In this document: in pieces, positions 1 to 42,025 of the stretch | Layout: each line of letters begins with the position of its first letter | Numbering within the stretch: position 1 is the first letter of the stretch | IMG/VR virus record: IMGVR_UViG_3300023181_000033 | Span: 1-58,782 of that record | DNA: 58,782 nucleotides | Strand: one strand, 5' to 3' | Source: a virus | The notes under the pieces: model-generated | The model's input: only the letters and a program-made list of their open reading frames with translations | The model's database searches: none | What the model was told of the DNA's origin: nothing | Position numbers and translations under genes: made by a program

Positions 1-99
1 AAAATAAAGCAGGCAGCAAAAGAGTTTTGCGAGGCTGAGGGAGTATCTTTCTTCCAACATGTAGAAGCTAATGAAGGAAGAACTTATTATAAGCAGGGC
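1..99. repeat. 99-bp direct repeat, copy 1
   Basis: The first 99 bases recur exactly at 41,924-42,022. The sequences diverge from base 100 (GTT here, TAA there). The repeat lies inside a coding region. The window opens on its first base, so any extension to the left cannot be seen. Confidence 0.97.
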
Positions 100-525
100 G
101 TTATATTGGAAAAATTCCTTCAGTCAATGATCGAAAAGGGAAAGGTTGTAACCAAAGATGAAGCTGACATATATCGTAGCAAAACAAGAGTTTTAACTAA
201 CGTTATTGAAAAGAACTGCCTTTTAGAAATAAAAACCGTTGACGGTTCTGATTTGGAATCAACCGTTTTAGGTGCCGGAAAGGAAGTGAATGACGAAAAA
301 ACGTCAAAATGGATACTTGATGAAGATTGTGTAAGATGCAATGATATTCCTTTGATAGAACAATCATTTCCGACAAAAGAGTCAAGAATAGCCATTAAAA
401 TAGCATCTAAAGCTATTGAAATGAAACAACTACTTGAAGAGTGCATTTACATATTTGTTTCAAATGATTATTCAGATAGAGAGTTTAAAAACAGAATATA
501 TAACCTATTAAAAGAAATACAATGA
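1..525 (+). CDS. Hypothetical early/packaging-side protein, 5' end outside the window
   Basis: The frame is open from base 1 and ends with TGA at 525. It gives at least 174 residues of a mostly charged, soluble-looking protein with no recognised domain. The sequence before the repeat at 41,912-41,923 supplies an in-frame ATG. If genome A closes on the 99-bp repeat, the full protein is 178 residues starting MNKKKIKQ. The stop overlaps the ATG of the next gene. Function unknown. Confidence 0.75.
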   Translation, partial: KIKQAAKEFCEAEGVSFFQHVEANEGRTYYKQGVILEKFLQSMIEKGKVVTKDEADIYRSKTRVLTNVIEKNCLLEIKTVDGSDLESTVLGAGKEVNDEKTSKWILDEDCVRCNDIPLIEQSFPTKESRIAIKIASKAIEMKQLLEECIYIFVSNDYSDREFKNRIYNLLKEIQ

Positions 526-701
526 TAAAAAATCAAGACAATAATAAGTCAAAAAAAGAATTATCCCTATTAATGTTCGCAAGAGAAGTAAATAACAGGA
601 TTAGATTCATAGGTGTAACCAAACCGAATGTTTTAACAATAGAAAAAGCTTATAAAAAAGGTTTGACCGTTAGCGATGCAGTATCATCTTTTATTAAATA
701 A
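522..701 (+). CDS. Small hypothetical protein (59 aa)
   Basis: ATG at 522 overlaps the stop of the preceding gene (ATGA), indicating translational coupling. The product is short, Lys/Asn-rich at its N-terminus and ends SDAVSSFIK. No domain was recognised. The position just upstream of the terminase genes suggests an accessory phage protein. Confidence 0.6.
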   Translation: MIKNQDNNKSKKELSLLMFAREVNNRIRFIGVTKPNVLTIEKAYKKGLTVSDAVSSFIK

Positions 702-710
702 CATTTTTTT

Positions 711-959
711 ATGAAAACAGCAGAGTATTATTTAATTATAGCTTTAGAAGAATCAGGAATAACTACTACAGATGATATAGATTCCAAAATATTAAATGCT
801 ATGGAGGAATACGCCAATCAATTCAAGTCATCCCATGCCAGTACGGAAATGAAGTCGACTGGCGAATTTATTGCTGTAGCTGAAAAAAAGCTGGGACTAA
901 AATACCCTCACATAGCGGTAATAGAGGAAGCTAAAAGGATGTACAACGACCAACTATAA
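711..959 (+). CDS. Small hypothetical protein with MKTAE...AMEEYA module (82 aa)
   Basis: This acidic protein begins with a roughly 40-residue module (MKTAEYYL, then AMEEYANQF). The same module opens the DUF551-like protein at 33,097-33,411 (MKTAEEIL, AMKEYAEQF). The remainder has no recognised domain. It sits directly upstream of terS. Function unknown. Confidence 0.7.
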   Translation: MKTAEYYLIIALEESGITTTDDIDSKILNAMEEYANQFKSSHASTEMKSTGEFIAVAEKKLGLKYPHIAVIEEAKRMYNDQL

Positions 960-990
960 CATTTTTATTGCAGGGGTTATAATTTATGGG

Positions 991-998
991 TATATTTG
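991..998 (+). promoter_or_regulatory. Bacteroidota -7 element TATATTTG before terS
   Basis: TATATTTG matches TAnnTTTG and lies 17 nt before the terS ATG at 1016. It lies within the alternative reading that would start at 986, which argues for the later start. Confidence 0.5.
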
Positions 999-1015
999 AG
1001 TTTACAATAATTAAC

Positions 1016-1522
1016 ATGACCGAGCAAAGAAAACGTTTCGCAGATAGATATTTTGAAACTCTAAACGGGTCTCAGTCAGCTATTTACGCGGGATATTCTG
1101 AAGCTACCTCAAGACAAAAGGCATGGGAATTATTGAACGATCCTGAGGTTGAAGAATATTTATCTAAGCTAAAGGCAGAATATTCCGAAAAGTCAGGCAT
1201 AAGCAAGCAGAGGGTGCTAGATGAATATCGTAAAATTGCATTCTCTGATGTAAGGAATATCTTAACTATCGATGGTGGCTTAAAAAGTATAGATGATCTT
1301 GACGATGACACCGCTGGGGCAATAGCGGGGATAGAGTCCTTTGATGAATTTAGTCGTGATGGTGAAAAACTTGGGACAAACAGAAAGATTAAACTTCACG
1401 ATAAACTAAGGGCATTAGAGGCTTTGTCTAAGCACCTTGGATTGTTCGAAAAAGACAACAAGCAAAAAGAAAACCAGTCTACGGTTACAATATTCCAATT
1501 GCCTGATAATGGCAGAAAATAG
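1016..1522 (+). CDS. terS: Terminase small subunit, phage A (Terminase_2-like)
   Basis: A 168-residue protein that recognises phage DNA and recruits the large terminase subunit. The N-terminal pattern MTEQRKRFADRYF, a GSQSAIYAGYS helix-turn-helix segment and the LLNDPEVEEYL helix are typical of the family. An in-frame ATG at 986 exists, but a promoter element overlaps it, so 1016 is preferred. It overlaps terL by 14 nt. It is not recognisably related to the phage B small subunit at 42,436. Confidence 0.88.
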   Translation: MTEQRKRFADRYFETLNGSQSAIYAGYSEATSRQKAWELLNDPEVEEYLSKLKAEYSEKSGISKQRVLDEYRKIAFSDVRNILTIDGGLKSIDDLDDDTAGAIAGIESFDEFSRDGEKLGTNRKIKLHDKLRALEALSKHLGLFEKDNKQKENQSTVTIFQLPDNGRK

Positions 1523-3038
1523 CATAAAATATATTCGGCCTCAAGAGGGGTACCAACTTGAATTTGCTTCTTCTCCTGCCGACATATGTATCGGAGGAGG
1601 CGCTGCGGGAGTTGGGAAAACTTTTTCATTGCTTCTGGAACCACTCAGGTATAAAGATATTGATGGGTTCGGGTCTGTAATATTTAGGCGTACTAATCCA
1701 CAAATCAGGAATGAGGGCGGGCTATGGGACACCTCGATGACATTATACAGTCTTCTAGGTGATGCTAATCCAAGACAAAGTAGTTTAGAGTGGGTGTTCG
1801 ATGTTTCTAAGCTAAAGTTTTCGCATCTTGAATATGAGAAAAATATATACGATTGGCAGGGTTCTCAAATTCCATTTATAGGCTTTGATGAGCTTACCCA
1901 CTTCACTAAAAAAATGTTCTTCTACCTACTTACACGTAATCGTTCTGTTTGCGGGGTGAACCCTTACGTTAGAGCAACTTGTAACCCTGATCCGGATAGT
2001 TGGGTAGCTGAATTTATATCGTGGTGGATAGACCAGGAAACAGGTTTTGCTATTCCGGAGCGTAAAGGTGTGTTAAGATACCTTGTTGTTGATGGTGAAA
2101 ATTATATTTGGGGCGATACACCGCAAGAGGCAATTGAAAAGGGCTGGCACATCATTGGGGAAGTAGCTGAAAAGTCAGGTATAGATCCTCTGTCATTCGT
2201 TAAATCAGTTACGTTTATAGGGGGGACTATTTACGACAACAAAGAATTGCTCAAAGAAAACCCGGCTTATCTAGGTAATTTACTGGCCCAAGATAAAGCT
2301 ACTCAGGCCGCTCTATTGCATTCAAACTGGAAAGTAGTGCTATCAGATAATGATATTTATGATTATGCTGCCTTTATTGGCATGTTTAACAACTTATACG
2401 AGGTTGACAGGACAGGCAAGTATATTACCGCAGATATTGCTATGAAAGGATCCGATAAGCTGATCGTATTTGCCTGGGAAGGTTATGAGTTGATTGATAT
2501 GATGATCCTGGATAAATCAAACGGTAAACAGGTGGTTACATCTATTGCTGGCATGGCATCAAGGCATTCAGTTCAAAACAGATACATAGCTTTTGATAAT
2601 GACGGAGTAGGGTCTTTTGTTGATGGGTTTATAGAAGGAGCCATTGAGTTTAACAACGGTGGACGTGCTTATCCTAGTCCAGACAAACCAATGAGGGATG
2701 CTAAAGGTAATGTTGTGCCCGAGAATTATCCCAATGTTAAAACACAATGTTATTACAGGTCGGGGGATAATGTTTTGAATGGAAAATACAAAATATCAGA
2801 ACATGTGGCTTCTATGATGTATGATGATAAGATGACTGTCAGACAAAGGTTAATACATGAACGTAAAGCAATAAAGCGTAAAAAGGCCGATATGGATGGT
2901 AAGCTACAAATAATAGGTAAAGACGAAATGAAAGCAGCACTTAACGGCCAATCCCCTGATTTAATGGATGCCTTTATGATGCGAGAGATATTCAATCTTA
3001 AAAAGGTTATAAAAGATCAAGAATTCTTTGCTGGTTAA
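1509..3038 (+). CDS. terL: Terminase large subunit, phage A
   Basis: ATPase-nuclease motor that pumps DNA into the prohead. The 509-residue protein has a Walker A GGGAAGVGKT at residues 29-38, a Walker B-like IGFDEL near residue 120, and an acidic nuclease-type segment IAFDNDGVGSF in the C-terminal half. The start MAENSIKY overlaps the end of terS. A further in-frame ATG at 1437 lies inside terS and is unlikely to be used. The protein is unlike the terL of phage B (42,868), so the two phages carry different motors. Confidence 0.93.
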   Translation: MAENSIKYIRPQEGYQLEFASSPADICIGGGAAGVGKTFSLLLEPLRYKDIDGFGSVIFRRTNPQIRNEGGLWDTSMTLYSLLGDANPRQSSLEWVFDVSKLKFSHLEYEKNIYDWQGSQIPFIGFDELTHFTKKMFFYLLTRNRSVCGVNPYVRATCNPDPDSWVAEFISWWIDQETGFAIPERKGVLRYLVVDGENYIWGDTPQEAIEKGWHIIGEVAEKSGIDPLSFVKSVTFIGGTIYDNKELLKENPAYLGNLLAQDKATQAALLHSNWKVVLSDNDIYDYAAFIGMFNNLYEVDRTGKYITADIAMKGSDKLIVFAWEGYELIDMMILDKSNGKQVVTSIAGMASRHSVQNRYIAFDNDGVGSFVDGFIEGAIEFNNGGRAYPSPDKPMRDAKGNVVPENYPNVKTQCYYRSGDNVLNGKYKISEHVASMMYDDKMTVRQRLIHERKAIKRKKADMDGKLQIIGKDEMKAALNGQSPDLMDAFMMREIFNLKKVIKDQEFFAG

Positions 3039-3069
3039 TTTGTAATTTTGTTGATACATAGAAATAGAT

Positions 3070-3077
3070 TACTTTTA
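3070..3077 (+). promoter_or_regulatory. Degenerate -7 element before portal gene
   Basis: TACTTTTA sits 4 nt before the portal ATG. The phage B portal has TACATTTG at exactly the same spacing (44,226-44,233). This looks like a decayed copy of TAnnTTTG. Confidence 0.3.
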
Positions 3078-3081: not shown

Positions 3082-4446
3082 ATGCAGTTAAAGAATTACG
3101 TCAAGACGGTAACAGCAGCGGTGTTACAGCCTATAGCTAAATCCTTGTGGGGGATTAATCCAAATGCCTCTATTGGCGTATCAATGCTGAATGATCGTGT
3201 TTTCAGGTGGAATCTGTCTGGAAATTCGGCCTATAATAATGGTATATTCTATACCGGAGCAAATATATTAGTTCGTAAAATGATAGAGGCTCCTATCACA
3301 TTTAACCAGAAGAAGGGTAAGCCTACTAAATCTATTGGCAAATACTACAGTAAAACCATAACGAGCAGCGAAAGAAATACGGTAAAGGCGGGAGTAGTTG
3401 ACGAATTGCCGGATCATGAGCTTAGCGAAATGTTCACCATTGAAACGATGGAGGATTTTTGGCATAATTATAACTTTGGGGACGGCTTTTTATGGTTTGA
3501 ACAACTTGGCGATGAGCTTACCAGGAACAGCAAGCCTATTAACGTGCATTCTCTTAGCCCTTCGAGAGTTGAGATCGTAACCAATGACGCGAAGTTTGAT
3601 AATGTTGCCTATTACAGGTACTCCTGCAAGAATGGAGAACAAATAAAGCTACCAAAAGAATCTGTATTACACTTAAGACACTGGAATCCTAATATAGGGG
3701 AATTGAAAGGTTACGGGGTAGATGTTGCAGCATCAAGGGATATATCCTTAAACAATGCAGGGAAAGACACTGAAGGCGCGGCATACGTTAATGGGGGTCG
3801 CGGCACACTGCTTAGTTCCGATGTTGAAATTGTAGACGGAGAACGGGTTGCAAAGATGACAGCCGAGCAAATGTCGTCACTTAAATCCACAATGGATAGC
3901 GACATGGCCGGAGCAAGGAATAACCGTAAGATGAATTATACTAACGGAAAAGTTGTAGTTACCCCATATGGCGATACGCTTGCGGAAATGGAGGTTAACA
4001 AATCTGAAGATAGCCGTTGGAAAAACATATTCGCCATACTTGGCTTACCTTGGGCTTTAACTCCTGTAGCAAGCCAGTCAAGTGAAAACAGCGTAGTTAC
4101 CGGGTATAAAGCCTTAGTGACAAACTTAGTCATATCAGAACTAAGGAAATTCGACCAGAAACTGACTAATATATTACAACAATGGTATAAAGGCATTATA
4201 GCTATATCTGATATTACTGAATACAGCGAATTAGCCCCTGATTTGAAGCTAATGAAAGAAATAGGATACGTTCCTTATGCAAGCGTAGATGAGAATAGAA
4301 AGGTATTTGGTCACGATGAGATAGGCGGAGAAATTGGGCAGGCTATATTAGTGCCATCCGGTCAAATGAAGATACAAGATATTATATCAGACGAATTTAC
4401 CAATGCTCCAGACGCTAACGATCCTAACGCACCTGAAAACCTGTAG
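3082..4446 (+). CDS. Portal protein, phage A (HK97 family)
   Basis: The 454-residue portal forms the dodecameric DNA channel at one capsid vertex. The length and the LKESV.LRHWNPNIGELKGYG-type core match HK97 portals. It is clearly homologous to the phage B portal (44,238-45,617), including the shared C-terminal motif DANDP.AP, although the terminases upstream are unrelated. The recombination boundary therefore falls between terL and portal. Followed by a small broken gene and MuF. Confidence 0.93.
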   Translation: MQLKNYVKTVTAAVLQPIAKSLWGINPNASIGVSMLNDRVFRWNLSGNSAYNNGIFYTGANILVRKMIEAPITFNQKKGKPTKSIGKYYSKTITSSERNTVKAGVVDELPDHELSEMFTIETMEDFWHNYNFGDGFLWFEQLGDELTRNSKPINVHSLSPSRVEIVTNDAKFDNVAYYRYSCKNGEQIKLPKESVLHLRHWNPNIGELKGYGVDVAASRDISLNNAGKDTEGAAYVNGGRGTLLSSDVEIVDGERVAKMTAEQMSSLKSTMDSDMAGARNNRKMNYTNGKVVVTPYGDTLAEMEVNKSEDSRWKNIFAILGLPWALTPVASQSSENSVVTGYKALVTNLVISELRKFDQKLTNILQQWYKGIIAISDITEYSELAPDLKLMKEIGYVPYASVDENRKVFGHDEIGGEIGQAILVPSGQMKIQDIISDEFTNAPDANDPNAPENL

Positions 4447-4614: not shown

Positions 4615-4818
4615 ATGACAAGATTATCAAGAGCTATTCACTCGTTTTGGACTATATTAAATGGCAAGAATCATTCTTATGCCGATGATCGTATTTGCTT
4701 TCTTATTGGCAGAAAAGATGATATATGCAAAAACATAACTGATATTTCAACTCTTGCTACTGACGAAATACACAAGAACAACCTACTTTATGAGGCTAAG
4801 GAGATTTTAAATGCTTAA
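4615..4818 (+). CDS. Small hypothetical protein (67 aa), phage A only
   Basis: Begins MTRLSRAIHSFW, 3 nt after the broken gene, and overlaps the MuF start by 8 nt. Phage B has no counterpart here, so this is an insertion in A or a loss in B. No domain recognised. Confidence 0.55.
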   Translation: MTRLSRAIHSFWTILNGKNHSYADDRICFLIGRKDDICKNITDISTLATDEIHKNNLLYEAKEILNA

Positions 4819-5647
4819 CGAGTTCAAACAGGAGCGATTAGAGTTTGCCAGGTTCCACAAGAACGCGGAGAAACAGATGTTGCCTATTGTTAGGAAGGCT
4901 TTGAATAAGCAGGTAGAGAACGTGGTAGCATGGGTTAAGAACAATGGTGTAGAAAACGTGCCCGTTGAAATGCTGATCGATCGTTATGTATGGCGTAACA
5001 TGTACCCGCAATTGTATGAACAGTTCGGGATGAGTATGGCGAGATTGGAATATTACAGACAGCGTAGATTGGACGGCAATGCAAGTAAGGCAAGCGTGAT
5101 CGATTTTTTAAAAGATGTCTGGAGTGGCAAATTAAGACAGGCAGCCATATCATACGTAACCGGAATTGAAAACGCCCTAAATCAAACAACTATAGAGAAT
5201 GTCAGACGCGCTTTGACTAATGGATACGAGATAGGGTTAGACCGATTAGGCAGGATTAGGATATTCAATAGAGAAATATTTGACATCAACAAGGGTAGAG
5301 GGCTGACCATATCGAGAACAGAAACCAGCACAATAGCGAATCTAGGCAAAGAAATAGCCGCTAAATCTTGGATTGAACAACAAGGAAATGGTGAAGGGTA
5401 TAAAGTTTGGTTAGGCCGTATAAAGGGCGAACGCGATACGCATTTAGAAACTAATGATACTATTATACCGATGGAGGATAAGTATTCTCTTAGAGGCGAT
5501 CTATGCGACAGGCCAGGAGATGTGGAGTTGGAAGCTAAAAACCGCCTAAATTGTCGCTGCACTCAAAGTTTAATGGGTGAGGCAAGGTATCAGCAATATG
5601 TAAAAAGAAACCGGATAGTTAACGGCAAGTTGACCGGAGCAAGTTAA
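4811..5647 (+). CDS. MuF-like minor head protein, phage A
   Basis: 278-residue head morphogenesis protein of the SPP1 gp7/Mu gpF type, a minor capsid component near the portal that acts in assembly. The central AAKSWIEQQ, the KGER.THL..ND region and the Cys pair in NCRCTQSL near the C-terminus fit the family's C-terminal MuF fold. The phage B version (45,768-46,604) has the same length and differs at only scattered residues. Confidence 0.88.
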   Translation: MLNEFKQERLEFARFHKNAEKQMLPIVRKALNKQVENVVAWVKNNGVENVPVEMLIDRYVWRNMYPQLYEQFGMSMARLEYYRQRRLDGNASKASVIDFLKDVWSGKLRQAAISYVTGIENALNQTTIENVRRALTNGYEIGLDRLGRIRIFNREIFDINKGRGLTISRTETSTIANLGKEIAAKSWIEQQGNGEGYKVWLGRIKGERDTHLETNDTIIPMEDKYSLRGDLCDRPGDVELEAKNRLNCRCTQSLMGEARYQQYVKRNRIVNGKLTGAS

Positions 5648-6746: not shown

Positions 6747-8132
6747 ATGAAAAAAGTATTTATTCCTGCAATGTCAGGGCTTGGTTCTGCATTTTTCCGC
6801 GCTAATTTATCTCCAGACGGGGGTGAAGGTAGCGGTTTGACAGACGAACAAAAGAAAGTTGCAGCACTTGCGGCAGTTAAACAGGCGGCAAAAGAAGAAG
6901 TAACGGCTATTTTACCAGATCTATTGACTAAAGGGTTAACTTCTGAAGAGGCTAAAACTGTTATCTCTAATGCTGTAAATGCAGCCTTTAAAGTGGCAAA
7001 GGTTGAAGATTTTGACGGTACTGAAAAAACGGTTACTGAAATCGTTAAAGAAATGCAAAAGCAGCACGATGCGCTTGCACTGGCATTCAAAAACAAAGGA
7101 TCTGAGGCTAATAAAAAAGGTGTTTTTGTTGAATTCGTAGAGAAAACCATTGCTGATAACGGTTTTAAAACCGGGACTGATAAAGGCAATGCCAAGTATA
7201 ACGAGACGTTCGAGTTTAAGGCTCCCGCTTTAATGACTACTGCAAACGTTGTGCCTAACGTAGCGGGTGGATTTTCACCATTATTTGGTAACTATATAGA
7301 CAATGAAATCGGTCACGTTCCAAAGCCGGCTCCTATTTTCATGCGTTTAGTTACGGTTACTTATCAGCCAGGTACAGAGAACATCTATTACACTGACCGT
7401 ATTAACGAAGAAGGTACAGCACAGTTTATAGCAGAGGGCGCATTAAAGCCTTTAATTGATGCAGAGTATAAAACTACTTCACTGCAAACAAAAGAGCTTG
7501 CAGAACGTTGGAAAATGACTACACGCCTAATGTACCACGCTCCTGCTGTTGTTACTGACTTTAGAGAGCATGCAAACGAGTTGATCGAGCAAGTTTTGGA
7601 TACTGCAGTATTAACAGGAGACAACACTGGTAACAACTTAAACGGTATTGTTGCTCAAGCTTCAGCGTTTGTTGTTCCGGCTCAATTAGCTGCTTATTAT
7701 GCAGAAGCTAATATTTGGGATGTTGTTATGGCAATGGCTACAGCCATTCGTTTGGCTAACTATAATGGTAAAATTACCGCAGTTCTCAATACTGTTTGGA
7801 TGGCTCAAATGGCTGGTATAAAAGATGGCGAAGGTCGTTACGTTATCGCTCCATTCGTTGCGCCTAACGGTAAAACAATTGGTGATGTTGAAGTAGAGTT
7901 TACCAATAAAATCCCGGCTACCGCTATTTTAGTTGGTGATCTGAAAAAATACAGATTGGTTATCTCTGAGAATGCAATCTATAACGAAGGTTATGAGAAT
8001 GATGACTTTTCTAAGAACTTAGTGTCTAAGAAAATCGAAACATTTGCTCAAGGTTATATCAAGCAGTCTGATAGAGGCGCAATCCTTTACGACACTATTG
8101 CTGACGTTTTAACCGACATTGCATCCGTATAA
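6747..8132 (+). CDS. Major capsid protein, phage A (HK97 fold)
   Basis: 461 residues. The N-terminal ~130 residues are Ala/Glu/Lys-rich and helical (EDFDGTEKTVTEIVKEMQ), as expected for a delta/scaffold domain removed by the protease. The HK97-like shell domain follows. The end has KDGEGRYVIAPFVAPNG and GYENDDFSKNLV, which match KDGEGRYLMPPF and GYVNDDFTRNLV in the phage B capsid (47,324-48,613). A GC-rich hairpin follows. Confidence 0.92.
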   Translation: MKKVFIPAMSGLGSAFFRANLSPDGGEGSGLTDEQKKVAALAAVKQAAKEEVTAILPDLLTKGLTSEEAKTVISNAVNAAFKVAKVEDFDGTEKTVTEIVKEMQKQHDALALAFKNKGSEANKKGVFVEFVEKTIADNGFKTGTDKGNAKYNETFEFKAPALMTTANVVPNVAGGFSPLFGNYIDNEIGHVPKPAPIFMRLVTVTYQPGTENIYYTDRINEEGTAQFIAEGALKPLIDAEYKTTSLQTKELAERWKMTTRLMYHAPAVVTDFREHANELIEQVLDTAVLTGDNTGNNLNGIVAQASAFVVPAQLAAYYAEANIWDVVMAMATAIRLANYNGKITAVLNTVWMAQMAGIKDGEGRYVIAPFVAPNGKTIGDVEVEFTNKIPATAILVGDLKKYRLVISENAIYNEGYENDDFSKNLVSKKIETFAQGYIKQSDRGAILYDTIADVLTDIASV

Positions 8133-8610: not shown

Positions 8611-10781
8611 TGGCAGCAGAAAAATTACCTAGTCAGGCGACGGGAGCAAATATAAGGAGCGCAATCGGTAATCATGCTGATTTGTTGGACGGCATTGCAT
8701 TGGATCTAATCAGCATCATATCACAAATAGCCACAAAGCTAGATGCAGATCAGGTACAGGCTTTGATTGATGCTTCTGGAGGTGGTGGCGGAGGTTCTGA
8801 GACGAAAGAAAGTATTTTACTGAAACTAGGCGCAACACAGGTAACAGGCAGCAACACCGGAGATCAGGACTTGAGCGGTATTATTACCTCACTGCAAGGT
8901 AAAGCGTCACAAGCAGATTTAACCTCGCTTAACAACTCTTATACGGCTTATGTAGCCTCGAATAACACTGCCGTAGCAGGCAAAGTATCGCAATCTGTTT
9001 ACGACGCTTTTGTGAGTGCTTATAATACGGCTATTGCTTTGAAGGTGGATAAGGTAGATGGCAAAGGTTTAAGTACGAATGATTATACGGCAACTGATAA
9101 AGGTAGAGTAGATACTATACCCGCTTTGACTACACAAGTTCAATCCAATACTGATACGCTTGCTTCTGCTGCCGTAGTAACAGGTGTTTTTCAACCTGAA
9201 ACATTAGCCTATCTTACTAAAATAAAAGCCGTGTCCGGTGGAGGGATTGACTTTTTTACACTTAGTCAAGTTGATAAAGCTATTACTGAAATAAAAAGAG
9301 TTGGTGCATATACTAAATTGAAGCGCCTTTCTTTTGCGTCGGGAGTTAATTTGGCGTCTGCATTGGTTCACGTAGTGGGGCAAATAACTAATACAGGCTT
9401 TGTTGAAGCAGATTTCACACAAGACAGGGCATTTAGTTTAACATCAAACTCAGGTAAATCATTAGATACAGGGTTAATACCGACATCTGAGGGGCTGTCA
9501 AATACTAATTTTTCTTTCGGGGTTATGGTTCTCGACGAGCAAACTACAAACTCCCCTGCTGCTCTGTTTTCAGATAGCCCCGCCTCTGGTGCTTCGGTTT
9601 TGTCTTTACAAGATAAATCATTTGGCATAGGTTCTGCTGGGGCTGCTGTATTTGGGGGCGGAGTTGAGTTTATATCAGCTTCTTACGGGTCTAGTATTTA
9701 TGGGTTTTTCATCAATGGTTACAAACTTTACGGAAACACAACAACGGTAGCGGCTACATTAAATTCTGAACTTAAGTTTTTTAGAGGTACTTTTAATGGA
9801 GCGCCTGTTTATTCAAAAACATCATTAGGATCTTATTTTGTAGGGGAATACTTAACGGACGTTCAAATTAAAGCCGTATCAAATGCTCTTAAAGCATATG
9901 AAGAAGCAATAGGACGCGTCTCCACTGTTGGCGGAAAAATAACATTTGAAGGGGACTCTAACACCGCAGGAAAGGGGATCAGCAACCCTTCCGACATAAC
10001 ATCAAGTCAAGTAGGAAAAGCGGTAGGATTCAGAGTAGAGAATTTGGGGTCTAGTGGCAGTCAGCTAAGGCAAGATACCTCATCTCTTAGCGCAATAGGG
10101 CTGTTTACAGGATATAGAGACATAACAAAAACAAAAAGAAACATTCACGTAATGATGCCGGGTACCAACGATAGAAATATCGGAGACCTTACTACAGACG
10201 GTAATCCTACGGTAATTTCTGATTTTATCAATAAATACGGTGTTATTGTTTCTGTGTTTAAGGGAGAAGGTAATAAAGTTGTAATAGTATCCCCGCCTGG
10301 AGACGCCTCTGGGGCTTCTAAAATAAAACAACAGGCGTATGTTGACGCTTGTGCTACTGTTGCCAATAGCAGGTCGGTGGTTATGGTAGACATCTACAAC
10401 TACATGTTAGACGCAACCGCTACAGGGGCGTTATCTGAACTCGTAGCGTTGTTCCTGCAAAATGACAACCTTCACTTAAGCACAGCTGGACATGCGTATA
10501 TAGTTTATCCAATTACATTAGGCATTCAGGGGCTTGTAGTTAGAAATCCGACATTTGATTTTCCAGAAGTAGCTTCTGGAGGTATGCAGGAGTTGACGGT
10601 AACAATGCCTAGTGTTAGAATCGGGGCTCAAATTACACCAACTTATCCTCCGGTTACAGGAATAATATTTCAGACTTATTGCGCAACAGACGGGGTGGTT
10701 ACCGTAAGAGCCACCAACTTGACTGCCTCTCCTATAAATCCTGCGGCATTGAAAATAAACATCGTAGCAAAGGCTCTTTAA
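8610..10781 (+). CDS. Large SGNH-hydrolase adhesin/decoration protein, phage A
   Basis: 723 residues. The N-terminal ~150 residues (helical, with a Gly hinge near residues 57-62 and SQSVYD.FVSAYNTAIA repeats) match the stand-alone 269-residue phage B protein at 49,808. A beta-rich middle follows. The C-terminal half holds an SGNH/GDSL esterase: GDSN near 449, GTND near 516, and DNLHLS near 618 (Asp/His). Such domains deacetylate or cleave surface glycans. The position between capsid and connectors suggests a head fibre or decoration, although a tail role is possible. Confidence 0.75.
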   Translation: MAAEKLPSQATGANIRSAIGNHADLLDGIALDLISIISQIATKLDADQVQALIDASGGGGGGSETKESILLKLGATQVTGSNTGDQDLSGIITSLQGKASQADLTSLNNSYTAYVASNNTAVAGKVSQSVYDAFVSAYNTAIALKVDKVDGKGLSTNDYTATDKGRVDTIPALTTQVQSNTDTLASAAVVTGVFQPETLAYLTKIKAVSGGGIDFFTLSQVDKAITEIKRVGAYTKLKRLSFASGVNLASALVHVVGQITNTGFVEADFTQDRAFSLTSNSGKSLDTGLIPTSEGLSNTNFSFGVMVLDEQTTNSPAALFSDSPASGASVLSLQDKSFGIGSAGAAVFGGGVEFISASYGSSIYGFFINGYKLYGNTTTVAATLNSELKFFRGTFNGAPVYSKTSLGSYFVGEYLTDVQIKAVSNALKAYEEAIGRVSTVGGKITFEGDSNTAGKGISNPSDITSSQVGKAVGFRVENLGSSGSQLRQDTSSLSAIGLFTGYRDITKTKRNIHVMMPGTNDRNIGDLTTDGNPTVISDFINKYGVIVSVFKGEGNKVVIVSPPGDASGASKIKQQAYVDACATVANSRSVVMVDIYNYMLDATATGALSELVALFLQNDNLHLSTAGHAYIVYPITLGIQGLVVRNPTFDFPEVASGGMQELTVTMPSVRIGAQITPTYPPVTGIIFQTYCATDGVVTVRATNLTASPINPAALKINIVAKAL

Positions 10782-10789
10782 CCTACAAC

Positions 10790-11338
10790 ATGGAACCAGT
10801 AACACTACAAGAGATAAAAGCATTCCTTCGCATTGACGCTGACTATGTGGCTGAGGATGCGTTTCTGACGTTAACAGCGGGTGCAGCAAGACAGATCATG
10901 CAGGATGAACTGAACATTGGACTTGTACCGATGGAGTTAGAATTTCAATGGAACGGTTGTAAGCAAGAGTTACCGTTAAGCCCTACCATATCCGTTGTGT
11001 CTGTTAAAGATGCTGAAGGGGTTGACGTGGAATATTCAACCGATGGTTACCAGGCTAAATCTATATGGGTGAACTGGAACGGGAATAGTGATGGCCAATG
11101 GTTCTACTCTATATCTGGAGGTTATGCAGAATATACACCGTTTGGCCGCGTAGGCGATGAACCTCTTTATAAGTGTGTATATCAAACTGGTTATGAAGTA
11201 CTGCCACAGACACTTAAATTAGCTTTGTTAGCGCAGATAGACCACATGTATAAGCTACGTGGACAGCCTGAAGGTTCGATGGTTAGTCAGGCCGCTTTAA
11301 ACATGGCAAGTAGGTACTCTAGGAATTTAGTGATATGA
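10790..11338 (+). CDS. Head-tail connector, gp6-like, phage A
   Basis: 182 residues starting MEPVTLQEIKAFLRID. This is the classic opening of HK97 gp6-type connector proteins (PF05135 family), which form a ring below the portal. It is nearly identical to phage B 52,272-52,820. Overlaps the next gene by 4 nt (ATGA). Confidence 0.85.
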   Translation: MEPVTLQEIKAFLRIDADYVAEDAFLTLTAGAARQIMQDELNIGLVPMELEFQWNGCKQELPLSPTISVVSVKDAEGVDVEYSTDGYQAKSIWVNWNGNSDGQWFYSISGGYAEYTPFGRVGDEPLYKCVYQTGYEVLPQTLKLALLAQIDHMYKLRGQPEGSMVSQAALNMASRYSRNLVI

Positions 11339-14634: not shown

Positions 14635-15117
14635 ATGCCAGTATTTGACCCAATTCAAGGTACAGAGTATATTATCGAAATAGACACTGAAACCTTAACA
14701 ACTACTCCCAACGCAACAAGAGGCGTAGATGCTAATTTTAGACCTGTAGTGTGTTTAGTCAGTAATGGCGTGGACGCAACATCTGCCGATCAGGAAACGA
14801 CCAACAAGTGCTCAGGAGGCTTTAAAACTTCTCAGTCAGGTGTTAAGTCGTGGAACATCACAGGTAACGGACAGGCTATATCCATCACGCAAGCCCCTGC
14901 CGATGACTATGCTAACTTTAACGAGTTAATGTCGTTATGGAAATCGGGTACACAGTTCTTTGCGCGTATCACTAACGCAGCAAGCACGAACTATTACCGT
15001 GAAGGGCGTGTGTATATTTCTTCTCAAGCAGAAACACAGCCTAACCAAGAAGCGATTACGTTCGACACAACACTTACAGGTGTAGGCGAATTATTCTTAA
15101 CACCTCCAGTAGTATAA
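14635..15117 (+). CDS. Major tail (tube) protein, phage A
   Basis: 160 residues, the building block of the tail tube. Located just before the frameshifted chaperone pair and tape measure, the invariant position of siphovirus tube genes. Pattern: RPVVCLVSNG, NKCSGGFKTSQSG, GNGQAI, ANFNELMSLWKSG, TGVGELFL. Highly similar to phage B 56,041. A divergent paralogue occurs downstream at 20,806. Confidence 0.85.
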   Translation: MPVFDPIQGTEYIIEIDTETLTTTPNATRGVDANFRPVVCLVSNGVDATSADQETTNKCSGGFKTSQSGVKSWNITGNGQAISITQAPADDYANFNELMSLWKSGTQFFARITNAASTNYYREGRVYISSQAETQPNQEAITFDTTLTGVGELFLTPPVV

Positions 15118-15502: not shown

Positions 15503-15846
15503 CGAACAAAGCTACAAACGAGGAAATCATGTGTTTGGCTTTTGGCGAAATGGGGTTATTGCCTCATGAATTAGAGGCTTACACAGTTGCTCAGTTTGAA
15601 GCTAAATGTAAGGGGTTCGCTAGGGGAAATGATAGGCTAGAGGTTATTGCAAGGCGAATGACAGGATTCCTCGTATCGGTTCACCTGGATAAAAAGGCAA
15701 AGTTCGATATCATTGAAAAATGGCCGATATTGAATGTTGACGAAAAGAATAAATACCGTACACAAGCCGTTCAGAGTAAAGCTAAAATAGCCCAAATGAT
15801 GGACAGGTTAGCAGAACAAAAGAAATCATGGCAGACGGTCAGTTAA
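15472..15846 (+). CDS. Tail chaperone GT extension (reached by -1 frameshift), phage A
   Basis: The GT product joins 15,119-15,472 with 15,472-15,846, about 242 residues. The T part contains CLAFGEMGLLPHELEAYT and ends in LAEQKKSWQTVS. It lacks a convincing independent start, since the first ATG (15,529) lies well inside the conserved part. The end overlaps the tape measure ATG by 19 nt, as is usual for G-GT-tape measure. Confidence 0.8.
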   Translation, partial: SDEEIEADIIANKATNEEIMCLAFGEMGLLPHELEAYTVAQFEAKCKGFARGNDRLEVIARRMTGFLVSVHLDKKAKFDIIEKWPILNVDEKNKYRTQAVQSKAKIAQMMDRLAEQKKSWQTVS

Positions 15847-26736: not shown

Positions 26737-27327
26737 ATGGGAAACTTTAAGGAAGCAGAGCGGGTAACCGGAAGATTTGAGGGCGGTTGGGCTAACAATC
26801 CAAATGACCGAGGGAAAGAGACCTATGGGGGCATTGCGCGTAAGTTCTGGCCAAATTGGAAAGGGTGGCCTTATATCGACAAATTTAAGGCGGACTATGC
26901 AAAAGCTAAAACTAAGCTATCATTGGCGCAATGGGTAAACGCTTCTGCAAAGGCAAATCCTGCAGTCGGTGAATTGGTATCTCAATTTTACAAATCCAAC
27001 TTTTGGGATGTGAATAAGCTAGATGCAATAACAGATCAGCAATTAGCTAACGTTGTTTATGATTTCAGCGTTAATTCCGGCACAAACAGAGGAGCTAAGT
27101 TCTTACAGGATGCTTACAATAATGTTAATGGCATGTGGGTTGATTTGGTTAGTGACGGTGAAATAGGGCAGAAAACAATCAATGCTGTAAATGCCTTTAA
27201 TGCGAAGCTACTGTTCCAGGAATATCAAAGGTTGCGCGAACTGTTTTACCGAAAGCTAGCTACGGATCCTAGCCAAAAACAATTCCTGAATAGTTGGTTG
27301 AGTAGGCTTACTAAATACAAAGACTAA
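26737..27327 (+). CDS. Endolysin, GH108 N-acetylmuramidase
   Basis: 196 residues. The motif RFEGGWANNPNDRGKETYGGI contains the family catalytic Glu near residue 15 (E-G-G) and the D-R-G-x-x-T-Y-G-G-I loop. The second half resembles the PG-binding_3 domain (VYDFSVNSGTNRGAKFLQ, DGEIGQKTINAV). Cleaves glycan strands at lysis. No signal peptide, so it depends on a holin. One-base overlap with the following membrane protein. Confidence 0.9.
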   Translation: MGNFKEAERVTGRFEGGWANNPNDRGKETYGGIARKFWPNWKGWPYIDKFKADYAKAKTKLSLAQWVNASAKANPAVGELVSQFYKSNFWDVNKLDAITDQQLANVVYDFSVNSGTNRGAKFLQDAYNNVNGMWVDLVSDGEIGQKTINAVNAFNAKLLFQEYQRLRELFYRKLATDPSQKQFLNSWLSRLTKYKD

Positions 27328-31432: not shown

Positions 31433-31966
31433 ATGAAAGAAACAAACATAGATGCTCGCAAGCACCGTAAATCTACACACTTAGCTGCTGCTGATTTAGA
31501 CGCGATGACAGTTGAAGGAAAGAAACTCGTTTTCACACTAAAAGAGGCTTGGTATGACACTAAAGTAGATGTGTCGGGTTCTGATACCGATGGTTACTTT
31601 TGTTCGTTCCAAGAGCCTATAAAGGATATGGTGATCAATTCTACCAACCGTAAAGTTATTGCCGGATTTGCCAAGAAAAGGGGTTTTAACGATATCGATT
31701 GCTGGAACATTGGCAACTGGGGTGGGATTAAAGTTGAACTAACTGTTCTTAGAGGTATTAAAGCATTTGGCAAGATCCAGGACGGTATTCGTGTTTCACC
31801 TATCCCGCCAGCAGAGAAGGTAAAGCCTGTATTTTATGAGGCTAACTTTGAAAAAGCACATTTGGCAAAGGCAAGTGTAGAGGCAATTGAAAAAGCGTAC
31901 CAGTTAACAGAGGAAATTAAAACACAATACTTACAATATGTCGCAGACAATAGCAAAGCAGAGTAA
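31433..31966 (+). CDS. Conserved early protein next to exonuclease (177 aa)
   Basis: Pattern MVINSTNRKVIAGFAKKRG, CWNIGNWGGIKVELTVLRGI, then GIRVSPIPP. I recognise this as a phage family often beside recombination or replication genes, possibly ssDNA-binding, but the biochemical role is not established here. Overlaps the YqaJ gene by 29 nt, implying joint function. Confidence 0.6.
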   Translation: MKETNIDARKHRKSTHLAAADLDAMTVEGKKLVFTLKEAWYDTKVDVSGSDTDGYFCSFQEPIKDMVINSTNRKVIAGFAKKRGFNDIDCWNIGNWGGIKVELTVLRGIKAFGKIQDGIRVSPIPPAEKVKPVFYEANFEKAHLAKASVEAIEKAYQLTEEIKTQYLQYVADNSKAE

Positions 31967-32585
31967 TTATCCACAAAGGAGTATCGAATGGCAAGCTGAA
32001 AGACTTGGAAAATTTACCTCTAGTAAAGCATCCGATTTATTAGGCATCAAAGGATTAGGCGAAACAGGTAAAACTTATGCCCGTAAATTAGCGGTTGATA
32101 TCGTAGAGGGTATTGATTATGATGAAAAAGAAGCTTCTATGACATTTTCGATGAGATTGGGCGTAGAAAATGAACCCTACGCATTCGAGCAATTCAAACA
32201 GCTAAAAACACTTGAATTTTTAGAAGTAACCAATTGTGGGTTCTTTGAGCTTACAAAAGACATTGGGGGTAGTCCTGATGGTTTAGTAGGAGATAATGCC
32301 GTACTGGAGATTAAATGCCCTAATTACGATACTTTCTTTAAGTTGGTCATTGATCAGGAAATCGATAAGAAGTATTATGCGCAAATGCAACATCAAATGT
32401 GGATCACCGATCGACAACATGCGTACTTCTTTAATTACGTTATCCATAATGGCGAACCTAAATGGCATGAGATAATTGTACATCGTGACGAGAACACTAT
32501 TGATCTGCTTAAATCCAGGACTGCGGAGGCTATTATTATTCGTGATGAATATATCGAAAAGTTACGTAAAAACAGACAGTATTAA
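31938..32585 (+). CDS. YqaJ-type exonuclease (lambda exo-like recombinase)
   Basis: 215 residues. The PD-(D/E)XK core is visible as GGSPDGLVGDNAVLEIKCP (Asp, Glu, Lys), followed by YYAQMQHQMWIT, the family Gln-rich helix. Degrades one strand at DNA ends to expose ssDNA for annealing. No RecT/Erf partner was recognised; the preceding conserved gene is the candidate partner. A terminator follows at 32,650. Confidence 0.87.
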   Translation: MSQTIAKQSNYPQRSIEWQAERLGKFTSSKASDLLGIKGLGETGKTYARKLAVDIVEGIDYDEKEASMTFSMRLGVENEPYAFEQFKQLKTLEFLEVTNCGFFELTKDIGGSPDGLVGDNAVLEIKCPNYDTFFKLVIDQEIDKKYYAQMQHQMWITDRQHAYFFNYVIHNGEPKWHEIIVHRDENTIDLLKSRTAEAIIIRDEYIEKLRKNRQY

Positions 32586-36667: not shown

Positions 36668-37828
36668 ATGAACAAGTTAGATATAGAGTATGCAAAACCA
36701 ATGAGTAAGGAAGAGGTAGCTTCATTCTTACACTCATTAAAAACAAAACAAAACAAATTAATAGCTTCATCAAACGATGTTATCAATAAGCATTCAGATA
36801 AACTTATACAGTCGTATTTTTACTTTGAAAAATCATTGATTGAGGAGAATAGATTAAATGCAGATAAACACTCAATTGAAATCAACGCCTACAACAAAGA
36901 TAAATGTATTTGTGGGTCAGATCTTGTTTTAGTTGCTAGTGGGTCATTTTATGGGTGCATAAATTATAAGAATGATGGTAGCCATAAAAATTTCATGAAT
37001 CATAAGCGCAATAGTTGGGGTGCACCAAAGTTGTATCGGACTACCAGGGCTAAAAGCTATTTGTCAGACATTATTCAATCGCTTAATTTAAAAGGTCAGA
37101 TAAATGCGAAGGCATTAGCATCATTCTACTCAGATAACGATCTGCCTGATTTATATGAGCGGTTTAATGGTAAATCATCTGCCAGCCTTATAAACAGGTT
37201 TTCTGAAGTTAAAAAAGTAGCTAATGATTTTGAAAAAGAAATACATGTCCGATTAAAACCGCTTTATACTACTGTACTATCGCAATTATACATAAAGTAT
37301 AAATTAAAGGGAGGCAGGGAGAGGGTATGTATACCGGATTTTGTTTGCTCAAACGAAAGAGAAATTGTTATAATTGAGTGTAAAACAAACTCGATGTCTG
37401 TAGATGATCTTCAAAACGCATTGTATTTTTGCCTTTTTGAATTTATGAATAATGGGTCAAGGGAGCTAAGTATTTACAATCTTATTCAAGACGAACCTAA
37501 GACTTTTCAATACATAAAGCAAAGAGAGCAATGGATATATTACGGTAAATTTTTCGGATATCCATCTTGCTGTGTCGATCATTTTCTAAATAGAAAACGG
37601 TATACAGGAGGTAAAAGAATAAATTATCATACAGGATTTACTCCTTGTGTATCTTGTTCTACTAAAATCAAAAAACCTAGAGATTTGGAAAAATTGATAG
37701 AAAACAGAATATGTAAAACCCCTTTCCCCGATAATAGTAACGGAGAAGGAGAATCTTATATCGACTTACATAAACAGCATTGCCCAGGGTATTATGCAAA
37801 TGAATATAGGGAGGAAGATTATGTCTAA
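36668..37828 (+). CDS. Zinc-ribbon / PD-(D/E)XK nuclease / Cys-cluster fusion protein
   Basis: 386 residues. A topoisomerase-like zinc ribbon begins near residue 80 (CICGSD, FYGCINYKNDG). A nuclease core follows near 221-241 (PDFV then IVIIECKTN, the D and ExK pattern). A DUF483-like Cys motif lies near 297 (FFGYPSCCVDHF), with further Cys/His (CVSCSTK, KQHCPGYY). This combination was not recognised as a described family. Precedes the replication genes and overlaps the initiator by 8 nt. Function unknown; probably nucleic-acid processing. Confidence 0.6.
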   Translation: MNKLDIEYAKPMSKEEVASFLHSLKTKQNKLIASSNDVINKHSDKLIQSYFYFEKSLIEENRLNADKHSIEINAYNKDKCICGSDLVLVASGSFYGCINYKNDGSHKNFMNHKRNSWGAPKLYRTTRAKSYLSDIIQSLNLKGQINAKALASFYSDNDLPDLYERFNGKSSASLINRFSEVKKVANDFEKEIHVRLKPLYTTVLSQLYIKYKLKGGRERVCIPDFVCSNEREIVIIECKTNSMSVDDLQNALYFCLFEFMNNGSRELSIYNLIQDEPKTFQYIKQREQWIYYGKFFGYPSCCVDHFLNRKRYTGGKRINYHTGFTPCVSCSTKIKKPRDLEKLIENRICKTPFPDNSNGEGESYIDLHKQHCPGYYANEYREEDYV

Positions 37829-38585
37829 AGAATTGCCGTATTTTAAGTTTTATATAGCCGACTGGATTAGCGGAGATATAACGTTAGAAGATTACTCTAT
37901 TCAAGGTTTGTTCGTTAACATATGCGCATATTACTGGTCAAAAGACTGCGACTTGTCAATAATTAATCTCAGAAAAAAGTTCAGAGGGTTTGATGATGAA
38001 ATTGACGCTTTATTTGAGTCTAATATTATCAAAAAATCAGATGGAAATGTGCATATATCCTTCTTAAACGAACAATTAGAGAGTAAAGAGGTGCAGAAAA
38101 TAACTAATAAAATTAACGGTCAAAAGGGAGGTCGTCCTAAAGTGTTAAAAACCGAAACAAAACCGAATGGGTTAAATTTCGCTAACCGAAACGTAACCGA
38201 AACCATAACCGAAACCGAACCGAACGATAACCCAAACCTAACCAATATAAAGGAAAGGAAAGGAGATATAAAGGTTATAACCCCGGTAGAAAAAACGGGG
38301 TCTATTGATTATGTTAAATTTATTCAATTCTTTAACTCTAAGGCTAACCGTAATTACAGGGTTACAACAAAAGTTAAAACTTCTTTGAATGCGAGGCTTA
38401 AGGAGTATAAGAAAGAGGAAATATTGCAGGCTATCAACAATGCTTACCTAGATCCATATCACATAGAAACCGATTTTAAATATCTGACACCAGAATTTAT
38501 GCTCAGGCCGGATAAAATAGAAAAATTTCTCAATATAGGCACTCAAAAGAAATCAATAGGGTATACACCACAAATGACCAACTAA
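37821..38585 (+). CDS. Replication initiation protein (254 aa)
   Basis: The N-terminal winged-helix-like domain (YFKFYIADWISGDITLEDYS, then the GLFVNICAYYWS segment) and a C-terminal Phg_2220_C-type domain (FIQFFNSKANRNYRVTTKVK, then FKYLTPEFMLRPDKIEKFLN) match phage DnaD/DnaT-like initiators. A low-complexity Thr/Glu/Asn linker joins them. It sits directly before the helicase and overlaps it by one base. Confidence 0.78.
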   Translation: MSKELPYFKFYIADWISGDITLEDYSIQGLFVNICAYYWSKDCDLSIINLRKKFRGFDDEIDALFESNIIKKSDGNVHISFLNEQLESKEVQKITNKINGQKGGRPKVLKTETKPNGLNFANRNVTETITETEPNDNPNLTNIKERKGDIKVITPVEKTGSIDYVKFIQFFNSKANRNYRVTTKVKTSLNARLKEYKKEEILQAINNAYLDPYHIETDFKYLTPEFMLRPDKIEKFLNIGTQKKSIGYTPQMTN

Positions 38586-39565
38586 TGATAAAATCAATTC
38601 AATCAATACGGGATTCCGTAATAAAGCTAAGAGAGAAAGGCGTACAGGCTGGAGATACCACAGGGTTTAAATGCTTAGATGAGTTGTACACCATTAAAGC
38701 CGGCACTTACACAATAGTGCTTGGTGCTCCTACACATGGTAAAAGCGAAATAATATTTGAACTTTTAATCAATCAGGCGATAGAACATCACAAGAAATCT
38801 ATTATCCTAAGTCCTGAGACTGGTAATGCAGAAGAAATCACAATGGAGCTTGTTCATAAGTATTTGGGTAAAACGGCCTATAAGTCCAATCCATTCTCTT
38901 GCGATGATAAAGAGTTTTATGAGGCTTTAAATTGGGTAGATTATAATTTTGCCATTGCAGACGATGAAGAAAAAAGCTATTCATTCAAAGAGCTTATAGA
39001 CGAAATCGAAAAGTTTGAAAAAGAAAAGAATTGCGTTTTTGACAATGTTATGGCCGAGCCGTGGAATGAGCTTAATCATAAGCTCGCGCTGAATGATAAT
39101 TCAGGTAGACAGGATTTAGCCATTGAGGAAGAGCTTACATTTCTCAGGAGGTATTGTAAAATCAAGAATAAACATGCTTTCCTCAGCTTCCATCCATCAT
39201 TCCAAACATTGGTAGTTGACAAGAAAGCCGGATTGAGTTATTACGAAATGCCAAAAGCCAGGGAGGCTGCAGGTGGACAAGCTACGCTAAGAAAGGCATT
39301 TAGTTGGATCAATATTTGGAGACCTCCTGTAGGTATGTTAGATATCGATGGCATACCGTACAGCGATAACCAACTTATCATCCAAGTTGAGAAATCTAAA
39401 CCAAAAGGCATAGGTAAAAAAGGATTTTGCGGGTTGTTTTTCGATTGGAAGAAGAATAGGTATTATGAGCGGCTTAATGGGTCTGATAAATTCGCTTTTG
39501 AACATAAAAATAATTTAAACGTGCATAATCCGAATGCAGGCATTTCAAATTCAGAGATATTCTAA
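38585..39565 (+). CDS. DnaB-like replicative helicase
   Basis: 326 residues: RecA-type ATPase core only, lacking the DnaB N-terminal domain. Walker A IVLGAPTHGKSE near residues 45-56. The family's SPE segment appears as LSPETGNAEE, and the later AGGQATLRKAF and KSKPKGIG segments fit DnaB motifs. Loaded by the preceding initiator to unwind phage DNA. Confidence 0.82.
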   Translation: MIKSIQSIRDSVIKLREKGVQAGDTTGFKCLDELYTIKAGTYTIVLGAPTHGKSEIIFELLINQAIEHHKKSIILSPETGNAEEITMELVHKYLGKTAYKSNPFSCDDKEFYEALNWVDYNFAIADDEEKSYSFKELIDEIEKFEKEKNCVFDNVMAEPWNELNHKLALNDNSGRQDLAIEEELTFLRRYCKIKNKHAFLSFHPSFQTLVVDKKAGLSYYEMPKAREAAGGQATLRKAFSWINIWRPPVGMLDIDGIPYSDNQLIIQVEKSKPKGIGKKGFCGLFFDWKKNRYYERLNGSDKFAFEHKNNLNVHNPNAGISNSEIF

Positions 39566-40537: not shown

Positions 40538-40795
40538 ATGAAAAGAATTATAATATTATTGCTACTGACCATCAGTATGATGTCATGCAAGAAAGACGAG
40601 ATAAAGCCAGATGGTTATTATCCTAAAGTTGGTGATACGTATCAATCGGTCGTTGATAATTGGGGTAAGACTAAGAACATAATGTATTTAAACCCCTCAT
40701 TTAACGATAGTGCAGATTACTATTACAAGGATCATAAAACCACAATCAGGGTTGTGACGGATAGAGTGGTTATGGTTACTCTTGACGGTAAATAA
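40538..40795 (+). CDS. Small lipoprotein moron (85 aa)
   Basis: MKRIIILLLLTISMMSC is a lipoprotein signal peptide with Cys at 17. The following KKDE is acidic-adjacent, as in Bacteroidota surface lipoproteins. The mature domain is small and beta-rich (VGDTYQSVVDNWGKTKN), resembling SmpA/BamE-like folds only loosely. Its own promoter suggests independent expression, for example in superinfection exclusion. Confidence 0.7.
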   Translation: MKRIIILLLLTISMMSCKKDEIKPDGYYPKVGDTYQSVVDNWGKTKNIMYLNPSFNDSADYYYKDHKTTIRVVTDRVVMVTLDGK

Positions 40796-40842
40796 CTTCG
40801 CAACATCTCTGTTACAAACTTGCCGATGACAGGTAAGAGTGG

Positions 40843-40850
40843 TAAGTTTG
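40843..40850 (+). promoter_or_regulatory. -7 element TAAGTTTG 3 nt before an ATG
   Basis: TAAGTTTG, 3 nt, ATG 40,854. TGTTACA lies upstream at 40,810-40,816. Confidence 0.45.
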
Positions 40851-40853
40851 GGA

Positions 40854-41141
40854 ATGGAAATAAAGAATAATATGAAACTAAAAGAATTAAAAAAGATCCT
40901 GGATAAACTTACACCAGAGCAATTAAATCAAGAGCTGATGTATAACAGCGAACAGTACAGCGTATCGGGAATAGCTAAGTTAACAAGAGCAAAGGCTTCC
41001 CTGTACAATAATCACGAGGATGATCCTTGTTTACTAAAGACCATGAAGGAGTTGAAAGAATACTACATGGGGGATAAAGACGAAATTGAGGCTTGTGATC
41101 TTGAAATAAAAAAAGGTGAATTTTTTATAGAATTTAATTAA
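40854..41141 (+). CDS. Conserved early protein, LTPEQLNQEL family (95 aa)
   Basis: MEIKNNMKLKELKKILDKLT; the promoter element favours the first Met, while the second (40,872) is an alternative. LTPEQLNQEL is a common motif in phage early proteins of unknown function. Confidence 0.6.
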   Translation: MEIKNNMKLKELKKILDKLTPEQLNQELMYNSEQYSVSGIAKLTRAKASLYNNHEDDPCLLKTMKELKEYYMGDKDEIEACDLEIKKGEFFIEFN

Positions 41142-41147
41142 AATCAT

Positions 41148-41318
41148 ATGTAAGATAAAAAACAAAATAAAAACATATTAGATATATGTGAATTTTACGG
41201 TCATAAATTTATGCCTAGGATGTCTTTTGATAATATTATTGATTATTATGAATGTTCAACTTGCTGGGTTTTAGAATCAACGATTTCAGTACATTATAAA
41301 GATAAAAATAACATATAG
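41148..41318 (+). pseudogene. Small zinc-ribbon-like gene with TAA at codon 2
   Basis: The frame ATG-TAA-GAT stays open for 54 further codons to a TAG at 41,316. The reading contains CEFYGHKF and YECSTCWVLES, a plausible C/H...CxxC zinc site. An internal ATG (MPRMSFDN) would lose the first ligand. Either a one-base nonsense change has inactivated it or an unusual start is used. Confidence 0.4.
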
Positions 41319-41322
41319 TAAA

Positions 41323-41709
41323 ATGGATAACATCAAAGAAATAACCACTTCAAAATTCACCGGGCTTGCAGTGCTTGTGCCGGGCAACTCGTTTAACTAC
41401 GTTGTTAGAGAAAATGAAGAACAATCTGATTTATGGTATGAAAGTCATTACGGTGACGATGATATTTCTAATTGGATAGAACTACCGTTGGCAAAACACC
41501 AATTCATCGCGCGATGGCCGGAAATAACAGAGTCACAAGCAGCGGAGATTGTTGATGAAGCAGGGTTTTTCGATTTTGGACATGGTAAATACAAATCTTA
41601 TTCAGAAAAAGATAAGAGCGTGATGTTTACCACCGAATCCTTCGCCTCCCTCATGCAGTCTATCGGATGTGAACAGGGGAAACAATATGTAATACTTAAA
41701 AAATTGTAG
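41323..41709 (+). CDS. Conserved phage protein (128 aa)
   Basis: Contains ARWPEITESQAAEIVDEAG and FASLMQSIGCEQGKQYVIL. It resembles small early proteins common in Bacteroidota phages. Function unknown. Confidence 0.6.
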   Translation: MDNIKEITTSKFTGLAVLVPGNSFNYVVRENEEQSDLWYESHYGDDDISNWIELPLAKHQFIARWPEITESQAAEIVDEAGFFDFGHGKYKSYSEKDKSVMFTTESFASLMQSIGCEQGKQYVILKKL

Positions 41710-41711
41710 AT

Positions 41712-41909
41712 ATGGAAGTAAAAATCAAACGAGTTAAATTTAACACAGGAGCGCCTGATTTTATATACGATGTAGAATCATGGTATAGTAACGGAGGCTG
41801 GAAAGGGTTCTTAAAAGATAACGGAATCAGTATAAGGGATATTGATCATGTTGAAAATAGCGAAATGCCTGAAAGAGAATTTCACACATTACCAGCATGG
41901 GAGGGCTAA
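41712..41909 (+). CDS. Small hypothetical protein (65 aa)
   Basis: MEVKIKRVKFNTGAPDFIYD; two bases after the previous stop. No domain. Confidence 0.55.
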   Translation: MEVKIKRVKFNTGAPDFIYDVESWYSNGGWKGFLKDNGISIRDIDHVENSEMPEREFHTLPAWEG

Positions 41910-41911
41910 AA

Positions 41912-42025
41912 ATGAACAAAAAAAAAATAAAGCAGGCAGCAAAAGAGTTTTGCGAGGCTGAGGGAGTATCTTTCTTCCAACATGTAGAAGCTAATGAAGG
42001 AAGAACTTATTATAAGCAGGGCTAA
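41912..42025 (+). CDS. 37-aa peptide spanning the A/B junction
   Basis: MNKKKIKQAAKEFCEAEG and onward, reading across the whole 99-bp repeat, then TAA immediately after it. The identical codons at 1-99 continue for 141 more residues. This is either a short natural phage B gene or a truncation made at the junction. Confidence 0.5.
   Translation: MNKKKIKQAAKEFCEAEGVSFFQHVEANEGRTYYKQG
41924..42022. repeat. 99-bp direct repeat, copy 2
   Basis: Exact copy of 1-99. Left of it lies the end of phage A, right of it the start of phage B. Confidence 0.97.

Follow-up and report, generated by a model that had tools for sequence, protein, structure and literature searches.

A viral metagenome record that very probably holds one complete circular-map phage genome followed by a piece of a related phage

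Results

Organization of the Record

We read the viral record IMGVR_UViG_3300023181_000033 as a metagenome contig that would hold the complete genome of one phage (phage A, with a circular map of 41,923 bp) and, behind it, a 16.76-kb piece of another (phage B). Almost certainly, a single ordinary phage genome, complete and with ends that meet, makes up the first 42 kb; the remainder comes from a related phage and was probably attached to it by assembly software. We put the probability of the whole explanation, namely a complete circular-map A, the re-reading of a k-mer, and a switch into B, at roughly 0.85. The window analyzed was the entire record (58,782 bp) and not a slice of it, and the contig is unbroken and without N; neither an end class nor a completeness value was listed for the record. 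Phage A lies on the plus strand at 1..41923 as one genome unit, as indicated by a direct repeat and by contigs that cross the seam where its ends meet, and phage B lies on the same strand at 42023..58782, a 16,760-bp fragment that extends from the 3′ end of a seam-gene homolog to the inside of a tape-measure-like gene. We judge a finding of this kind to be ordinary among metagenomic phage records.

A 99-bp Direct Repeat and an Interrupted Gene

The preliminary description of this DNA had reported that bases 1–99 recur exactly at 41,924–42,022, and direct sequence comparison confirmed it. The first copy (1..99, plus strand) begins at base 1 and is the opening 99 bases of the record; the second (41924..42022, plus strand) matches it exactly, and the match is precisely 99 bp long, with G at base 100 and T at 42,023. 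It exceeds every other exact direct repeat in the window in length and has a chance expectation of about 1e-47; no exact inverted repeats of at least 25 bp were found in the window.

Joining 41,912–41,923 to 1–525 yields an uninterrupted frame of 178 codons. That this junction restores a 178-codon gene truncated at both ends in the linear window had also been proposed earlier, and the recomputed frame bore out both the coordinates and the truncation: the 3′ part (1..525, plus strand, 174 codons) is open at its 5′ end on the left, the gene being split by the opening of circle A, and the 5′ end (41912..42025, plus strand) starts with ATG and runs for 37 codons to an in-frame TAA that follows the repeat immediately, where A meets B. 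The part at 1..525 had no PHROG or Pfam match. With the 178-residue seam protein as query, four stretches matched a pattern, and two of these were confirmed, both in viral contigs (L003 and L049).

Independent Contigs Across the Seam of Phage A

Both of these contigs keep the order of phage A across the seam. L003 (IMGVR_UViG_3300023094_000104, 4,778 bp), the sole viral contig matched by 51 bases of the repeat, aligns to 41,653–42,022 (98.4%) and then without a break to 1–848 (95.1%). It is identical to A over 634 bases spanning the seam (41,733 to base 443), of which 191 precede the seam and 443 follow it, contains the 99-mer once, and encodes the seam gene as an intact 178-residue protein with few changes. 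L049 (IMGVR_UViG_3300023106_000080), whose terminase large subunit (TerL) is 99% identical to that of A over residues 1–497, with DNA at 89%, aligns to 40,794–41,955 and then to 259–848, and identity within the repeat is limited to its first 32 bp, after which the sequences diverge. Its seam gene is likewise intact, with 167 residues and a middle unlike that of A. The uninterrupted identical runs comprise 14 N-terminal and 17 C-terminal residues, and single changes are all that separate the near-identical C-terminal halves. The A-to-B join was seen in neither contig.

The seam gene, located slightly upstream of the terminase genes, is itself mosaic, with flanks in L049 that are near-identical to those of A and a replaced middle. 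The homologs in two longer relatives described below, G001 and G003, share their start with A and have a different and longer end.

Closed Relatives

Four contigs >36 kb with TerL identity of at least 60%, drawn from 26 loci, served as relatives for comparison. Three of them, all uncultured phages, have ends that overlap: G001 (IMGVR_UViG_3300023083_000007) by 160 bp at 99.4%, G003 (3300023082_000005) by 127 bp at 100%, and G004 (3300023094_000018) over 133 aligned positions at 99.2%; the resulting circles measure 40,111, 39,784, and 41,833 bp, respectively. The fourth, G005 (36,962 bp), showed no end overlap. The closed relatives thus resemble A in having closed maps of about 40–42 kb, and the 41,923 bp of A is in line with their lengths. 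They differ in their distance from it, with tblastx coverage of the 41,923 bp amounting to 22,465 for G001, 16,639 for G003, and 5,578 for the distant G004. When a head gene of A (4811–5647) was used as query, two loci were recovered, from G001 and from a 4,226-bp contig.

Relative to TerL, the maps open 1,991 bp upstream in G001, 3,468 bp downstream in G003, 7,307 bp downstream in G004, and 1,511 bp upstream in A. The openings thus differ in all four closed maps, those of A and G001 being only about 0.5 kb apart, which makes a fixed physical end unlikely; each has the look of an arbitrary cut made in a circular map. The openings of G001, G003, and G004 are also crossed by frames of at least 60 codons, but frames of this size can arise by chance and are given no weight here.

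The earlier proposal that A is circular or circularly permuted at 41,923 bp is therefore supported by L003 and L049 across the seam and by three of four relatives that close, in each case by contigs and not by reads. On these sequence comparisons, the genome of A is very probably complete, with a circular map of 41,923 bp that fits physically circular, circularly permuted, or concatemeric DNA alike.

Gene Content of Phage A

The PHROGs scan took in 34 frames of A and not all of its frames. The structural and packaging genes, all on the plus strand, begin with the terminase small subunit (TerS; 986..1522, phrog_51) and large subunit (1437..3038, phrog_979 and Pfam Terminase_6N), and continue with PHROGs matches to a portal protein (3082..4446) and a head morphogenesis protein (4811..5647), the major head protein (6747..8132, phrog_10), a PHROGs match to a head-tail adaptor (10679..11338), and the major tail protein (14635..15117, phrog_1407). 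The tape-measure-like protein (15828..18038) matched best phrog_30292, of unknown function, and weakly the tape measure family phrog_20660 (E 3e-6). Farther along the same strand are an endolysin (26737..27327) with GH108 and peptidoglycan-binding domains, a YqaJ/RecE-like exonuclease (31938..32585), and replication-initiation/primosomal-like and DNA primase/helicase-like genes (37794..39565).

The set expected of a siphovirus-type genome (terminase, portal, major capsid, major tail, and tape measure genes) was found in A, the tape measure match being weak. The preliminary description had held that everything a siphovirus needs lies between the repeat copies; this was nearly, though not strictly, borne out, with matches for packaging, head, tail, endolysin, and replication functions, including a weak neck/tail-completion match (E 7e-4), and with neither a holin nor a head protease named among the 34 frames of A scanned against PHROGs.

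Several other features were observed in this region. A second gene with the major tail family phrog_1407 is present at 20806–21342, and phrog_10066, of unknown function, is matched by two genes on opposite strands (28040–28492, minus; 35696–36067, plus). Between the head and connector genes, 8610–10781 encodes a 723-residue protein that contains a GDSL lipase domain and weakly matches a tail fiber, and short tandem repeats of the CAGCAGCAT type occur at 11805–12026 within a minus-strand frame (11743–12375) amid the plus-strand structural genes.

Gene Content of Phage B and Mosaicism Between the Phages

Phage B encodes its own TerS, TerL, portal, head protease, and major head protein. Its terminase small (phrog_309) and large (phrog_2) subunits (42436..44193, plus strand) belong to families other than those of A, and the fragment ends in the start of a tape-measure-like gene (57216–58781; tape measure family match, E 4e-6) that is cut by the record end and is the positional counterpart of 15828–18038 in A. 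The two phages are colinear, DNA-level blocks covering 5,289 of the 16,760 bases of B, and the blocks >150 bp are 70–92% identical.

The terminase families differ in these otherwise colinear genomes (986–3038 with phrog_51/phrog_979 in A; 42436–44193 with phrog_309/phrog_2 in B), which, at the level of sequence, suggests an exchange of the packaging module. The TerL of G001 is 99.5–100% identical to that of B, whereas the TerS/TerL pair of A differs. A 50-bp block is identical in A and B (5779–5828 and 46605–46654); G001 follows B up to this block and A (95.2%) after it, and a mosaic switch therefore lies in or at the block. Exact copies of the block were present at three loci, all from G001, among the 168 loci compared.

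The A-to-B Join

The nearest relative of B is G001 (locus L004), which matches from exactly 42,023 and is 92.6% identical over 42,023–46,654 (4.6 kb). Upstream of the position equivalent to 42,023, G001 carries its own 206-codon seam-gene homolog, not the sequence of A; this gene starts like the seam gene of A and ends in ...LNQQP. The bases at 42,023 read as the closing codons of a gene of this type, with the B side starting 14 bases before the stop codon, so that at the join the seam gene of A contributes its first 111 bases and a G001-type gene its final 17, counting the stop codon. By the alignment coordinates, about 490 bp of the G001 gene are absent at the join in the window. The sequence past the join accordingly has another upstream neighbor in its nearest relative, as expected of a chimeric contig, and an assembly chimera is the most likely explanation of the join. 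The first 30 bases of B, from 42,023, had an exact match in 0 contigs of viral_contigs, in a scan that may omit this record and very near ones.

Host and Wider Relatives

No named phage record matched bases 1–20,000 at near identity. The best named TerL relatives, nearly full length, were 34% identical for A (Bacteroides phage LoVEphage and others) and 43% identical for B (Nonlabens phage P12024L), and as these are taken to be too distant, TerL does not decide the packaging type. Closer and nearly full-length relatives of the TerL of A occur in Bacteroidota, for example in Chryseobacterium oranimense (75%), Pedobacter cryoconitis DSM 14825 (71%), and a Mucilaginibacter MAG (69%), and TerL proteins 69–75% identical are present in some other Bacteroidota genomes or MAGs. 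Other loci among the 39 are less similar to it; some of the loci belong to other phyla, and there the match is mostly limited to about residues 8–275. The comparison of A with the Bacteroidota genomes covered the terminase large subunit, and on this gene the host of A is likely a member of the Bacteroidota, perhaps of the Sphingobacteriaceae.

Discussion

Origin of the Repeat and of the Join

The 99 bp are best read as an assembler k-mer overlap and not as a biological terminal repeat. An assembler that makes one full circuit of a circular or circularly permuted genome would re-read its starting k-mer and so leave a 99-bp overlap. A starting k-mer inside a gene whose middle varies among near-identical phages would be a natural branching point in the assembly graph, and here the path, instead of stopping or closing, probably crossed from A into an allele or neighbor belonging to B; a variable seam gene would be the sort of place where an assembly path leaves one genome for another. 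Three parts of this account are inferred: the value of k (99), the switch of the path, and a physical basis in circularly permuted (headful-type) DNA. Values of k of 127 and 99 are commonly used; the exact 127-bp overlap of G003 agrees with k = 127, and the 99 bp of A would fit k = 99, or a maximum k of 100 in IDBA_UD. The COBRA paper, where it deals with contig ends, gives overlaps equal to maxK for metaSPAdes and MEGAHIT and to maxK-1 for IDBA_UD (PMC10914622).

The alternative that survives best, possible although doubtful, concerns the join alone and overlaps the preferred explanation: B may truly have a shortened seam-gene allele, made of the 5′ end of the A gene (at least 99 bp, acquired by recombination) and, after a deletion, the 3′ end of its own. 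The join would then be true B sequence, only the attachment of a whole A upstream of it would be wrong, and the reading of A would be untouched. The join does fall within homologous genes, its B side beginning shortly before a G001-type stop codon, the seam gene is mosaic between near-identical phages, as the replaced middle in L049 illustrates, and a graph path would require reads over the join; however, the scan of viral_contigs did not recover the exact B start, neither seam-crossing contig has the join, and the join leaves just 37 codons before TAA.

Because a de Bruijn path through the 99-mer plus T needs some reads that hold it, the join may also be real sequence in some genome. A real recombinant present in the sample, formed when co-infecting phages with different terminase modules swap whole blocks at a gene just upstream of the terminase that has an exchangeable cassette as its middle, is unlikely in our estimation; if true, the contig would have captured a crossing from A to B by which the packaging module would be replaced.

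More improbable still is a physical union of A and B, whether as tandem prophages in one host chromosome or as a hybrid concatemer formed during co-infection, with the repeat as attachment or recombination site. A continuous contig without N, the colinear kinship of A and B, and the YqaJ/RecE-kind exonuclease encoded by A would all accord with it, yet L003 shows the closed form of A, the repeat starts exactly at the first base of the contig, and 99 bp is long for an attachment core. The integrase/recombinase models PF00589, PF00239, and PF00665 each matched in 0 of 4 records (the window and three relatives), and in 14, 10, and 6 of 14 control genomes, respectively; with no match to these three models, a tandem prophage was judged unlikely.

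Weakest of all, and barely credible, is the reading of the 99 bp as a direct terminal repeat packaged with a linear genome: exact copies at both ends of one genome unit would suit it, but the 99 bp sit inside a coding gene, the three closed relatives open elsewhere, the four closed maps share no fixed terminus of the kind expected to be conserved with packaged terminal repeats, and L049 keeps the seam yet diverges early in the repeat, so that this candidate was rejected on the openings of the relatives and on the lack of conservation of the repeat in L049.

Implications and Comparison With Self-Circular Contigs

The practical upshot is that the record should be split at 42,022/42,023, with A treated as a complete 41.9-kb genome and B as partial. 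Left unsplit, a 58.8-kb “genome” carrying two sets of terminase, portal, and capsid genes would give misleading results in analyses of genome size, taxonomy, and gene sharing, and a check that compares just the two ends of the record would overlook the completeness of A, because the second copy of the repeat is internal.

Among known systems, the closest parallel to the complete A and its re-read k-mer is the self-circular metagenome contig, as treated in the COBRA paper's account of contig ends (PMC10914622). The record resembles such contigs in its exact overlap of a plausible k, in the single genome unit between the copies, in the gene restored at the seam, and in having relatives that close likewise; unlike them, it continues past the second copy into a second phage.
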